Of a stretch of 64,000 bases of DNA, positions 39,578 to 42,585 are shown piece after piece. Made by a program: the position numbers and the translations under genes. Position 1 is the stretch's first letter; every line of letters starts with the position of its first letter. The stretch lies in assembly GCA_021817245.1 (NCBI GenBank), contig JAKAVQ010000005.1, positions 62,001-126,000 on the forward strand. Direction: 5' to 3'. Below the pieces are notes generated by a model. That model was not told where the DNA came from, ran no database searches, and saw only the letters and a list, made by a program, of their open reading frames with translations. Source of the stretch: Thermoplasmata archaeon (GTDB lineage: Archaea; Thermoplasmatota; Thermoplasmata; Lutacidiplasmatales; UBA184).

Positions 39578-39762
39578 CCGGGGATCGGGTGCGGCGTGCG
39601 GGGGACCCCCGATCGCACCGGACCGCGGCGTTCGACGGCGGCTGCGCGGGGGCCGTTTTCTCGCTGAACCCGCTCTCTCGACTCGGGGGAAACCGGCGGA
39701 CCGCGGCCGTGCGGGGCGACTACTTCCCGTGTTCTTGAGGTTCGTCTCGGCGGCCTTGAAGT

Positions 39763-39770
39763 TCATATAC
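39763..39770 (+). promoter_or_regulatory. TATA-like box for the RHH-ftsZ locus
   Basis: TCATATAC, about 58 bases before the RHH ATG. The predicted initiation site, near 39793, lies inside the left arm of the inverted repeat at 39791-39821. Confidence 0.55.
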
Positions 39771-39790
39771 CAGAATGACGATATGTCAAT

Positions 39791-39821
39791 CGTCAGACAA
39801 AGAAAGGGGTGTTGTCTGACG
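39791..39821. promoter_or_regulatory. Perfect 10-bp inverted repeat, candidate operator for the RHH regulator
   Basis: CGTCAGACAA (39791-39800) and TTGTCTGACG (39812-39821) are exact inverse complements with 11 bases between. Half-site centres are 21 bp apart, two helical turns. The repeat overlaps the predicted transcription start and ends 3 bases before the RHH ATG, so binding would block transcription. As RNA it could also form a hairpin with AAAGGGGTG in the loop. Confidence 0.6.
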
Positions 39822-39824
39822 GGC

Positions 39825-40190
39825 ATGGTCGACACTTCGGAGCGGGTGACGGTGCGCATCCCGCAGGACCTGCTGGAGAAGCTGAAGCAGATCCAGCAGT
39901 CGCAAGGTACGCCCACGATCTCCGACACGATCCGGGAAGGGCTGGAGCAGTACATCGAGCTCCATCTGCCTCCGCAGCACATCCGCAAGGTCGTCGTGGA
40001 ACTCTCGCGACAGGACAACCGGCAGCTCGAGGAGTTCGTGCGCGAGGGCAACTCGGTCAGCGTCGACGATGCCGTGCGCTCGGCGGTGCGGGAGTACATC
40101 CGCAGCCGCCTCGAGCAGTTCGGATCCGCGGGACGCGCTCCCCGAAGGGACGGCGAGCCGGTCGCGGCCGAGGGCTCCCCTCCGCCCTAG
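39825..40190 (+). CDS. Tandem ribbon-helix-helix transcription regulator (CdrS/CdrL-like context)
   Basis: A 121-residue protein with two ribbon-helix-helix units in one chain: ERVTVRIPQDLLEKLKQI...SDTIREGLEQYI (residues 6-43) and RKVVVELSRQDNRQLEEFV...DDAVRSAVREYIRS (residues 52-92), then a short Pro-rich tail. Each unit has the beta strand for the DNA groove and the two helices. A tandem chain fits a two-half-site operator such as the repeat at its own promoter. In haloarchaea the RHH regulators CdrS/CdrL are encoded next to ftsZ2; this protein lies 15 bases before an ftsZ-family gene, so a division-control role is a reasonable inference. Confidence 0.8.
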   Translation: MVDTSERVTVRIPQDLLEKLKQIQQSQGTPTISDTIREGLEQYIELHLPPQHIRKVVVELSRQDNRQLEEFVREGNSVSVDDAVRSAVREYIRSRLEQFGSAGRAPRRDGEPVAAEGSPPP

Positions 40191-40205
40191 GCGGTGGGGC
40201 ACCGA

Positions 40206-41243
40206 ATGACCGCCGGTAGGGGCAGCTCGGATTCCTGGTCCGCTCTCGCGCTGACGCCCGGGATCGCGATCGTCGGCCTCGGCGGCGCGGGCAGCGAGGC
40301 GGTCCACGACCTCGTCGGCCTCGGCATACCGGGGGTCCGCTCGCTGGTGGTCAACACCGACGCGAAGCACCTCGTCCGGATGGGCGCGGAGGAGAAGATC
40401 CTCCTCGGCCAGCGGGAGCTCCGGGGTCGGGGGAGCGGCGGCGACCGGGCGGCGGTGCTCCGGGCCGCGGAGGACGCGAAGGAGGAGCTCCTGCGTCGCC
40501 TGGCCCCCTTCGAGATCGTCTTCTTGCTCGCCGGTCTCGGGGGCGGCACCGGCAGCGCGTTGCTTCCGTTCCTGGCCCGGGCCCTCCGCGCGACGGAGAC
40601 GCTGCCGATACCGGTCGTCTTCCTCCCGTTCCAGGTGGAACTCGAGGCGAACCCGAACCGCCGCGAGAACGTCGACGCGACGATCGAGGAGCTCGAGGCG
40701 ATGGGAGGCCTGCTGATCGCGATCGCGAACGAGAAGCTCCGTCGGTTCGAGCGCCTGCCGATCTACCGCGTCTTCCAGGTCCGGAACGCCTACCTGCACT
40801 CCCTGGTCGTGAGCCTGGTCGACATGGTGGAGAACCCGAGCCAGTTGAACGTCGACCTCGCGAGCCTGAAGAACCATCTCCGCGAAGCCGGCCTCTCCAC
40901 GCTCGTCGTCGGGGAGCACCACATCTCCGAGCCGGAACGGCTCGTCCAGCAGGCGCTCTCCGAGTCGCTGCTCGACTACCGGCTCGCCGAACGATCCTCG
41001 GCCCTCGTCCACCTGGACGGAGGGTCGAACCTCACGCTCCGCACGCTCGACCGGGTGATCCGGACGATGCGTCACGCGCTAGGGCAGCCCGAGCGACTCG
41101 TCTTCGGGACCCGCGTCCGGCCGGAGCCTCGGGAGGTCGTCCATCTGACGGCGGTCGTGGGCGGCCTCCGGCTCGGCGCGGTACGGGACGCGGTCGGCGC
41201 GCCGGCGCGGTCGGAAGAGCCGCTCGCGACCCCGCTCCTCTAG
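40206..41243 (+). CDS. ftsZ: FtsZ/tubulin-family GTPase with altered T7 loop
   Basis: FtsZ polymerises into the division ring. The 345 residues show VGLGGAGSEAVHDL near the start, VVNTDAKHLV, RGRGSGGDRAA and the tubulin signature GLGGGTGSA (about residues 112-120). The T7 catalytic loop, normally NxDxxD, reads NVDLAS (residues 215-220): the second Asp is Ser220. In E. coli FtsZ that Asp takes part in GTP hydrolysis across the subunit interface, so polymers may turn over slowly or need a partner. There is no conserved C-terminal tail peptide. ATG 40206 follows GGTGGGG by 6 bases. Confidence 0.9.
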   Translation: MTAGRGSSDSWSALALTPGIAIVGLGGAGSEAVHDLVGLGIPGVRSLVVNTDAKHLVRMGAEEKILLGQRELRGRGSGGDRAAVLRAAEDAKEELLRRLAPFEIVFLLAGLGGGTGSALLPFLARALRATETLPIPVVFLPFQVELEANPNRRENVDATIEELEAMGGLLIAIANEKLRRFERLPIYRVFQVRNAYLHSLVVSLVDMVENPSQLNVDLASLKNHLREAGLSTLVVGEHHISEPERLVQQALSESLLDYRLAERSSALVHLDGGSNLTLRTLDRVIRTMRHALGQPERLVFGTRVRPEPREVVHLTAVVGGLRLGAVRDAVGAPARSEEPLATPLL

Positions 41244-41851
41244 GGAGGGACGGCCCGCAGATCGAGCTCGCGGTGCACCGCGTCGACGACCTGGCTCGTC
41301 CGCAGGGAGCGCGGGCCGACCGAGAGGCGCGGGACCCCGCTCCCCGAGAGCTCGGCGACCTCATCGGCCGTGGGATCGTACGGATCGGAGATGACGGCCG
41401 CGATCTCGTTCGGGGGAGCGGACCGGATCCACTCAGCGATCGGACCTCCGTCCTCCGTCATCCAGACGGCGGCCGGCAGCGCGAGGAATTGGCCGAGCGC
41501 CTCGCGCGGATCGACCGGCGCGACCGTGAGACCCGGCGAGGACTCGAACGGGCGGACGAACCCCGCCGAGCGGACCAGTGCGTTCTTCAGCAGCGCCGCG
41601 GTCGAGCGTTCGTCCGGATTGAGAAACCGGAGGCGCTCGCCGACGAGGTCGATACGTCGCGCGAGGGGAGGAGGATCGTGCACGAACAGCACCGTCACCT
41701 CGGTGTCCCGGCGCAGGTCGTTCGAGAGCGTGAACGCGGTCGACACGGCCCGCGCGACCTCGTCCATCCGGCCGGCGCCTCCCGCGAGGTCGTTGAGCGT
41801 GAACGCTCCCGCGGGAGGGACCCGGTGGGCGAGAAAGAGGAAACGCCGCAT
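41240..41851 (-). CDS. trmY: tRNA (pseudouridine-54-N1)-methyltransferase TrmY
   Basis: Methylates pseudouridine 54 in archaeal tRNAs. The 203-residue SPOUT-type protein has FLFLAHRVPPAGAFTLNDLAG at the start, AVSTAFTLSNDLRRDT and VTVLFVHDPP, all family features, and the knotted C-terminal part with LSVGPRSLRTSQVVDAVHRELD. The ATG lies 29 bases after the centre of CCTATAGT on the minus strand, so it is leaderless. Convergent with ftsZ, overlapping by 4 bases. Confidence 0.93.
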   Translation of the reverse strand: MRRFLFLAHRVPPAGAFTLNDLAGGAGRMDEVARAVSTAFTLSNDLRRDTEVTVLFVHDPPPLARRIDLVGERLRFLNPDERSTAALLKNALVRSAGFVRPFESSPGLTVAPVDPREALGQFLALPAAVWMTEDGGPIAEWIRSAPPNEIAAVISDPYDPTADEVAELSGSGVPRLSVGPRSLRTSQVVDAVHRELDLRAVPP

Positions 41852-41876
41852 CCCGGGCGCGGACGGCCATCCCGCA

Positions 41877-41883
41877 CTATAGG
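41877..41883 (-). promoter_or_regulatory. TATA-like box for trmY
   Basis: CCTATAG on the minus strand, centred 29 bases before the trmY ATG; predicts a leaderless mRNA. Confidence 0.6.
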
Positions 41884-41919
41884 TCTGTGCCGAGGCGGAT
41901 CCTCGCGGCGCGGGGCCCG

Positions 41920-42585
41920 CTACGGCTCGATCGACGGGCCGGGCTTGCGACCCCGGGCGGGCGGTGCCGGCACCACCGGGTTCTGGCGGCGTTCCAGCCA
42001 GACCTCGTCGCCGAGCTCGTGGTAGACGGCGTGCGCGGGCAGTCCGGTGCCGTGCTCCCCGTGCGGGAGGCGGAAGCCGCCCGAACGGTTCTGGTTCGAT
42101 GAGTAGACGAACTCCTGCTCGCCGGCGGCCACCATCGCCGCGGTCTCCTCCCGCGCCAGGTCGAAGATGCGGTCCTTGCGGAACATCCAGTAATGGATCC
42201 GCCACTCGCGACCGTCGTACAGCGTCGTCTCGTCCCGCTCGGTCTCGAGGATGCCCGTGTCCTCGAGCATGTAGAACGTGTCGCGGTCGTCGGGCTCGAG
42301 GACGTTGTCGATGATCCGCTCGTTGAACCCAAAGAAGTTGAGCACGTGCGCGGCGATCGACCGGGCATCCTCCGGCCGCATCCCCTCGTGACCGACGGAG
42401 CGACGGATCGCCTTCGCGAGGGAGTCAAAGTCCACCGGGCCCGCCGCGGCCGCCAGCGTGGCGTCCGAGGGGAGCCCCGCCCGCGTGGTGGTCACGTCCT
42501 CCTCGGTCCGCAGGGGGACCGGATTGCGCAGCGTGAACCGCTTCGACGACCCACCCTTTGCGGCGGCATGGTCCGAGGCCCGCAT
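41920..42585 (-). CDS. DUF6015-like protein, Thermoplasmata-type unknown
   Basis: A 221-residue protein of unknown function that I associate with DUF6015 in Thermoplasmata. The conserved block is FDSLAKAIRRSVGHEGMRPED, then HVLNFFGFNERIIDNVLEPDD, RDTFYMLEDTGILETERDETT and GREWRIHYWMF (about residues 52-140). It is helical, then beta, like a winged-helix fold, so nucleic acid binding is possible but unproven. Poorly conserved tails flank it. The ATG is 29 bases after a good TATA-like box. Confidence 0.75.
   Translation of the reverse strand: MRASDHAAAKGGSSKRFTLRNPVPLRTEEDVTTTRAGLPSDATLAAAAGPVDFDSLAKAIRRSVGHEGMRPEDARSIAAHVLNFFGFNERIIDNVLEPDDRDTFYMLEDTGILETERDETTLYDGREWRIHYWMFRKDRIFDLAREETAAMVAAGEQEFVYSSNQNRSGGFRLPHGEHGTGLPAHAVYHELGDEVWLERRQNPVVPAPPARGRKPGPSIEP

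Follow-up and report, generated by a model that had tools for sequence, protein, structure and literature searches.

A tandem ribbon-helix-helix gene linked to a divergent ftsZ in Thermoplasmata: its conserved predicted operator and a predicted division regulon

For few model species is it understood how archaea set the amounts of their division proteins, and a locus found in a 64,000-nucleotide stretch of a Thermoplasmata archaeon genome (hereafter the window) raises the question of whether a small ribbon-helix-helix (RHH) protein there controls the ftsZ-family gene that directly follows it, and through which DNA sites. Genes for RHH proteins adjoining ftsZ2 across archaea were described in 2020 and 2023 (PMC7439475, PMC9871819), so the linkage itself is already published. 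In Haloferax, cdrS lies together with ftsZ2, and CdrS binds before ftsZ1 (PMC8406309).

The gene pair and its linkage in the class

The coding features of the locus were as follows.

39825–40190, + strand, stop included: tandem RHH regulator, 121 aa (PF01402)
39840–39959, + strand: RHH unit 1, residues 6–45 (PF01402, relatives' alignment)
39981–40109, + strand: RHH unit 2, residues 53–95 (second RHH_1 stretch; predicted helices)
40206–41243, + strand: divergent FtsZ, probably of FtsZ2 type, 345 aa (PF00091, PF12327, model, trees)

In the profile search, PF01402 (RHH_1) matched the 121-aa protein with E=5.5e-10 over two stretches, at a limit of E=1, so that the second stretch may be weak when taken alone. 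The AlphaFold model of the protein was poor (mean pLDDT 53), and the helices predicted in this low-confidence model (residues 14–27/32–47 and 62–73/80–100) follow an RHH–RHH order. The initial annotation had placed two RHH units in this one chain, and both that claim and its coordinates proved right, with the regulator ATG at 39825, 15 nt between its stop codon and ftsZ, and the ftsZ ATG at 40206. Together with its 36 relatives, at 69–91% identity, the protein has an invariant unit 1 strand, RVTVRI (37/37 sequences), and the strand of unit 2 is KVVV[ED]L. The CdrS profile was matched separately by both units in class homologues, with E-values of 8.9e-10 and 1.2e-9 in genome G045. The RHH protein was matched in 52 of 61 genomes; within the genus this held for 31 of 37, the six without a match having a completeness of 57–79%, and among the 24 genomes searched outside the genus three gave no match (G048, G055 and G056) and one a weak match (G060).

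With the FtsZ protein as query we retrieved 52 loci; of these, 41 (L036–L076) were close homologues carrying the record titles Thermoplasmata (39), 'bacterium' (one) and Euryarchaeota (one); the Mycobacterium and Segniliparus loci (L077–L087; 28–30% identity) were left out. An RHH gene lay directly upstream of ftsZ at all 41 loci, and the estimated gap was 4–49 nt at 40 of them, which makes the shared transcript that had been proposed for the two genes likely. At L040 (3673–5169), no stop codon ends the RHH frame ahead of ftsZ, which may reflect a frameshift or a sequencing error. For the class as a whole we used the best tandem-RHH homologue and its flanks from 20 genomes of 16 other families, i.e. 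the 24 non-genus genomes minus the four with no match or a weak match, and with weaker second matches excluded. The next ORF on the same strand encoded an FtsZ in 18 of these 20 loci; at L092 the nearest detected FtsZ was more than 900 nt from the RHH gene, and at L099 none was found beside the RHH gene within the flanks. The neighbourhood comparison suggested by the initial annotation thus gave linkage at 41/41 close homologues and 18/20 class loci. A wider RHH–FtsZ linkage is seen in the class, but as a novelty it had been preceded by the published reports (PMC7439475, PMC9871819). Elsewhere in the window's genome and outside the window (G000:C7, ≈148109–149090; L005), a second RHH gene lies directly before a short divergent FtsZ-like gene, and such pairs occur also in class genomes (L186, L188, L189, L191 and L193); as judged from these sequences, RHH plus FtsZ-like gene is a repeated module.

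The linked FtsZ matched PF00091 (E=2.7e-24) and PF12327 (E=8.9e-11) in the profile search and scored 185 bits with TIGR00065, under the cut-off of 295. Its model (pLDDT 85) had the predicted fold of a complete FtsZ and resembled S. aureus FtsZ in Foldseek with a TM of 0.92 by target and 0.82 by query. For its type we relied on two trees, with comparators among the PF00091 matches listed and hence not every FtsZ of those genomes. The first, of 103 listed FtsZs, was midpoint rooted, with the bootstrap not settled; the canonical FtsZs there formed a well supported group (100/100, 68 rows) with the RHH-linked FtsZs apart, and one canonical-labelled row, L185, fell outside it. The second included FtsZ1 of M. 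jannaschii and Odinarchaeota, one bacterial reference and no FtsZ2 reference. Here the two canonical types, A and B, were joined in a class-specific group (97/92), B nesting within A; the RHH-linked FtsZs stood across a 99/95 branch from A/B that the bacterial reference did not cross. From the first tree we had considered a lineage of FtsZ distinct from both FtsZ1 and FtsZ2, an idea that was dropped once the M. jannaschii and Odinarchaeota FtsZ1 sequences were added. With regard to gene context, ftsZ1 has been reported beside protein-synthesis genes and ftsZ2 beside RHH_1 (PMC9871819). An A-type gene of G039 lies near ribosomal L11 (over cut-off) and a SecE-like ORF (18.4 bits, cut-off 22.7), and one of G051 near a SecE-like ORF of 22.1 bits, also under cut-off; the A-type context is drawn from these two genomes, leaving aside L271 (the A locus of the window's own genome), L273 and L274. 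The best assignment for types A and B alike is FtsZ1-type, the context giving this partial support. The linked FtsZ is most likely an FtsZ2, because it falls outside FtsZ1 in the tree and because of the gene contexts, and its exact place in the tree is unsure because of long branches.

The predicted operator at the regulator's own promoter

Upstream of the regulator gene, we noted these features.

39762–39769, + strand: TATA-box-like TTCATATA of the operon (from the sequence; a partly conserved A/T-rich block)
39781–39787, + strand: degenerate third site ATATGTC, one turn (11 bp) before site 1 (conserved columns)
39792–39798, + strand: predicted operator site 1, GTCAGAC, in repeat arm 39791–39800 (GTCNGAC in 56/56)
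39814–39820, + strand: predicted operator site 2, GTCTGAC, in repeat arm 39812–39821 (22-bp spacing in 56/56)

The 10-bp inverted repeat that had been described here is indeed perfect, and each of its arms holds a palindrome of its own, GTCNGAC; an element shared with other promoters, TATGTCAATCGTCAGACA, spans 39782–39799, beginning in the third site. Judging from the position of TTCATATA, transcription would start near the left site. As evidence, the bare 10-bp inverted repeat was insufficient, the window holding seven perfect 10-bp arm pairs with loops of 3–30, the operator repeat included. The phased pair GTCNGAC-N15-GTCNGAC occurred once in the window versus 0.06 expected, with at least one in 6 of 100 shuffles, and 200,000 shuffles of the upstream 100 nt produced it once.

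We then assembled 72 upstream regions of close relatives from the FtsZ- and RHH-based searches, leaving out L020 and L058 (less than 70 nt upstream), which gave 56 distinct sequences. The GTCNGAC pair was found at exactly 22 bp in all 56, with the six fixed letters of each site invariant, and because of this conservation the operator pair is beyond chance. The flanking AAA and TT were also conserved (1.1–2.0 bits), as were the third-site columns −11 to −4 (0.9–1.9 bits), the A/T-rich block at −30 to −23 from the left site reached 0.3–1.05 bits per column, and the nine inner spacer columns were unconserved (0.16–0.73 bits). The initial annotation had predicted an operator of the regulator's own and had named loss of the repeat in close relatives as an observation that would speak against it; the pair was instead kept throughout.

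Of the 20 class loci, 14 likewise had phased pairs upstream of their tandem RHH gene. This included exact pairs at 22 bp in seven (L090, L091, L093, L096, L097, L104 and G053), exact pairs at 21 bp in two (L088 and L089), 22-bp pairs with one base off in three (L100, L101 and L102), and one exact pair each with a spacing of 12 bp (L095) and 33 bp (L105). Five loci had one exact site only (L092, L098, L099, L103 and L106), with a further GTCAG-led near-site, found by eye, 22 bp from the exact site in L092 and L098, and no exact GTCNGAC site was found upstream in L107. The half-site spacing of two helical turns noted at first was thereby recovered in the class at 21–22 bp, with 12 and 33 bp at one locus each, and spacings close to one, two and three helical turns suggest proteins placed on one face of the helix. 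Among known RHH proteins, the Arc repressor binds subsites 11 bp apart and TraY of F has two RHH units in one chain, these being phage and plasmid proteins with no link to division.

Further promoters with the element and the predicted mode of control

The full repeat was found once only in the 2.31-Mb genome, allowing up to 3 mismatches. Its left part, TAYGWCNNNCGTCNGACA, occurred three times: at this operon, before an FtsZ1-type gene and before an operon of small ORFs. The initial annotation had proposed such a genome-wide search for further copies near division genes. Matches to TAYGWCNNNCGTCNGACA were present in 37 of 61 genomes, among them 35 of the 37 genomes of the genus, and the reversed TAYGWCNNNCGTCNGACA used as a control gave 0 matches in the 61 genomes. 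Of the 73 matches listed, 71 were in the genus and could be assigned by sequence to this operon (17), to ftsZ1B (27) or to the small-ORF operon (27). The strict form of the shared element fitted 28 of the 56 distinct upstream regions of the RHH operon, the pair being present in all 56. At the strict matches outside the genus (G044 and G054) no ftsZ or other division target was identified, and among the 14 loci read for one-mismatch matches L227–L231 were without an identified division target.

The gene ftsZ1B (L003 type) is one of two other canonical ftsZ genes in the genus. In all 11 genomes read, GAGCGTATGACGCTCGTCTGACAAAC or a variant of it was found 16–20 nt before the ftsZ1B ATG, with a TATA-like box 30–33 nt before the element, and the counterpart of the third site was GTATGAC, or its one-base variant GTAGGAC in 2 of the 11; at ftsZ1B and at the small-ORF operon the site takes the form of a pair, GTANGAC–11 bp–GTCNGAC. 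For FtsZ1A (L002 type), GTCNGAC was found upstream of the start in 0 of 11 genes read, with one GTCNGAC inside the coding region at L210. Outside the genus and among the FtsZs listed, GTCNGAC within 500 nt upstream of the T1 motif was seen for 6 of 20 FtsZ1B-type and for 2 of 35 FtsZ1A-type genes, one of the latter being intragenic, and exact pairs were present at the non-genus FtsZ1B-type loci L150 and L155. In G051, a 22-bp GTCNGAC pair (C1:1187452–1187480; L185) lies directly before a second, divergent FtsZ gene, and the RHH-linked ftsZ operon of that genome has one exact site only.

The small-ORF operon (in the window's genome at G000:C1:45218–45620, outside the window; L245) consists of an ORF of about 50 aa followed by another small ORF whose end is a form of AAAAFATYVDTARARAAIEGRTLVYTVRW; its proteins had no Pfam match over cut-off. 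Its TATA-like box at L245 is TTTATGTA, and the element sits on the TATA box here and downstream of the TATA box at ftsZ1B. The third-site counterpart was GTATGAC or GTACGAC, in 12 of 15 sequences a further GTCNGAC followed after 23–24 bp, at the first small ORF's start codon, and the second ORF lay downstream of the match in 26 of 27 cases, the 27th (G011) being at a contig end. At the small-ORF operon of G001, G002, G013, G019 and G004 the element was absent. In G060, two exact 22-bp GTCNGAC pairs lie 101 bp apart (C8:56156–56285; L197 and L232), with no clear target gene found for them. The shared element predicts a small division regulon, whose promoters would be repressed because the sites overlap the TATA box or the start, and the small-ORF operon is a candidate for a new division factor.

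Our main reading, to which we give a probability of roughly 0.75, is that the tandem RHH protein binds GTCNGAC and, by covering the start or TATA box, represses its own operon and ftsZ1B, as well as the small-ORF operon in much of the genus. Beyond the observed genes and the observed conservation, spacing and genome-wide placing of the sites, we infer that the RHH protein is the site binder, that it acts as a repressor and that ftsZ is on the same transcript. A CdrS-like two-unit RHH repressor would be transcribed together with the divergent FtsZ2-type gene, and the palindromic GTCNGAC sites that it would bind lie roughly whole helical turns apart; with the sites covering the predicted start at its own promoter it would limit its own operon by negative feedback, and expression of ftsZ1B and the small-ORF operon would follow that of the ftsZ2 operon via the same site. 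Since GTCNGAC is symmetric and the two RHH strands are unlike (RxTxR versus KxVx[ED]), the probable readers of each site are the ribbons of unit 1 from two chains, and unit 2 would hold the chains together.

Repression is here predicted from the position of the sites, because Haloferax CdrS binds mostly 41–110 nt upstream of starts and may activate (PMC8406309). An activating role of the RHH protein, of the kind that CdrS seems to have in haloarchaea, we consider unlikely; in Haloferax, repression of cdrS makes ftsZ1 fall (PMC8406309). In some class genomes, sites at L150, L155, L173 and L177 do lie upstream of the ftsZ1B TATA-like box, as read by eye, but the genus sites overlap or follow the TATA-like box at the RHH operon, at ftsZ1B and at the small-ORF operon. 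Archaeal regulators bound over or after the TATA box usually block the polymerase or TBP.

We give still less credence to the sites being operators of another, unlinked regulator, such as a different RHH protein, with the tandem RHH protein acting elsewhere. The window's genome does have two other RHH_1 loci and the further CdrS-like gene at C7; against this, phased pairs stand before the tandem RHH gene itself in 14/20 class loci and 56/56 close relatives, the usual sign of autoregulation, and at the C7 RHH locus (L005) GTCNGAC was not seen in 3.3 kb.

Finally, it is very improbable that the repeat acts in the mRNA, as a hairpin ahead of the start codon that controls translation or RNA stability. 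The 73 nt around the start do fold, at −25.2 kcal/mol (z −2.2), and the repeat then forms a stem immediately upstream of the AUG; 6 of 200 shuffles gave a fold as good. Against a hairpin, complementarity of the central pair was seen in 49 of 56 upstream regions, where independent sides would give 46.75, and 7 of the 9 departures from A–T at that pair have no compensating change. The inner A–T stem pairs are broken in 9 and 11 of the 56, the class spacings are 12, 21, 22 and 33 bp, and at the ftsZ1B promoters the element is present with the partner arm missing. The mostly uncompensated changes at the central base favour a DNA operator and led us to reject an RNA hairpin as the main function, and the palindromic half-sites, together with GTCAGAC occurring twice in the same sense at L088, fit a site for an RHH dimer better than a stem.

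The degenerate T7 loop and relation to known systems

The RHH-linked FtsZ of the genus carries a change in a catalytic motif.

40848–40871, + strand: T7 loop NVDLASLK, with Ser at 40863–40865 in place of the expected second catalytic Asp (42/42 without Asp)

In all 42 genus-type linked FtsZs, the second T7 Asp was replaced by S, T, N or G and the first was kept. Among the FtsZs listed, the second Asp was lost in 0 of 101 comparators, being kept in 18/18 class RHH-linked FtsZs, 61/61 other class FtsZs, 11/11 FtsZ1A and 11/11 FtsZ1B. This count leaves out L005 and keeps apart from the comparators nine rows of less than 330 aa, 8 of which had no second Asp. Of the 18 class RHH-linked FtsZs, 3 had another residue in place of the first T7 Asp. 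The T4 motif GGGTGTG had likewise become GGGTGSA in 42/42 genus-type linked FtsZs; in the 18 class RHH-linked FtsZs its T was kept in all and its last G in 16. In S. aureus FtsZ, where the catalytic T7 aspartates have also been altered (D210N/D213N), D213N stops assembly, and D213 is, by the motif N-x-D-x-x-D, the residue lost here (PMC8936486). Those forms are laboratory mutants that fail to assemble (PMC8936486), whereas the change found here is natural, fixed and present alongside two canonical FtsZs.

The loss suggests that GTP hydrolysis is reduced or absent at the T7-loop interface of the linked FtsZ, which may serve as a modifier of FtsZ1 filaments. More speculatively, and in our view doubtful as a whole, the FtsZ2-type protein could be non-hydrolysing and tune FtsZ1 filaments, with the RHH protein matching the dose of this FtsZ to that of FtsZ1B by way of one shared operator, and with the small-ORF operon, which has this operator too, supplying a new division factor. 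If this were true, the FtsZ2-type protein of the genus would no longer drive division alone. The locus shows an FtsZ that lacks a residue considered essential, with both the gene and its control remaining fixed.

The locus has in common with the haloarchaeal CdrS–FtsZ2 system an RHH_1 gene directly before an FtsZ2-type gene (PMC7439475, PMC8406309), as well as a site before an ftsZ1 gene and a small regulon, both the binding and the regulon being predictions here (PMC8406309). Haloarchaeal CdrS is a 55-aa protein of a single unit, compared with 121 aa and two units here (PMC7439475). With the CdrS equivalog profile NF058555 our protein scored 29.5 bits (E=5.5e-7), below the 100-bit cut-off, which was exceeded in 0 of 61 genomes in the profile search. 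The overlap of the sites with the predicted start and the loss of the second T7 Asp are features here that are unlike that system, and the circuit thus resembles the Haloferax one with another protein architecture and probably the other sign too. Another archaeal RHH cell-cycle regulator is aCcr1 of Sulfolobales, with CdvA and not FtsZ as its reported division target (PMC7617429, PMC12284271). The NCBIfam profile of aCcr1 covers 38 positions, i.e. one unit, and it matched the tandem RHH protein weakly, with 23 bits versus a cut-off of 60.

In the open-licence literature we found neither a tandem RHH protein of Thermoplasmata with its operator, regulon and T7 loss nor the combination of RHH, ftsZ2 and Thermoplasmata; as far as searched, the tandem RHH protein, the operator with its regulon and the loss of the second T7 Asp are new. 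The CdrS–FtsZ2 circuit would thereby be extended to a class where a tandem RHH protein builds it. We know of no cultured member of the group; the exact predicted operator and the predicted regulon lend themselves to in vitro tests, for which no culture is needed.

As to the neighbouring genes, a formate-THF ligase gene lies upstream of the RHH gene here, where haloarchaeal CdrS–FtsZ2 loci have cdrL. On the minus strand of the window, a TrmY-like ORF (PF04013) occupies 41243–42205 and a DUF6015 ORF (PF19479) 41923–42585; the frame of the former continues upstream over the latter, and the true start of the TrmY-like ORF probably lies inside its frame.
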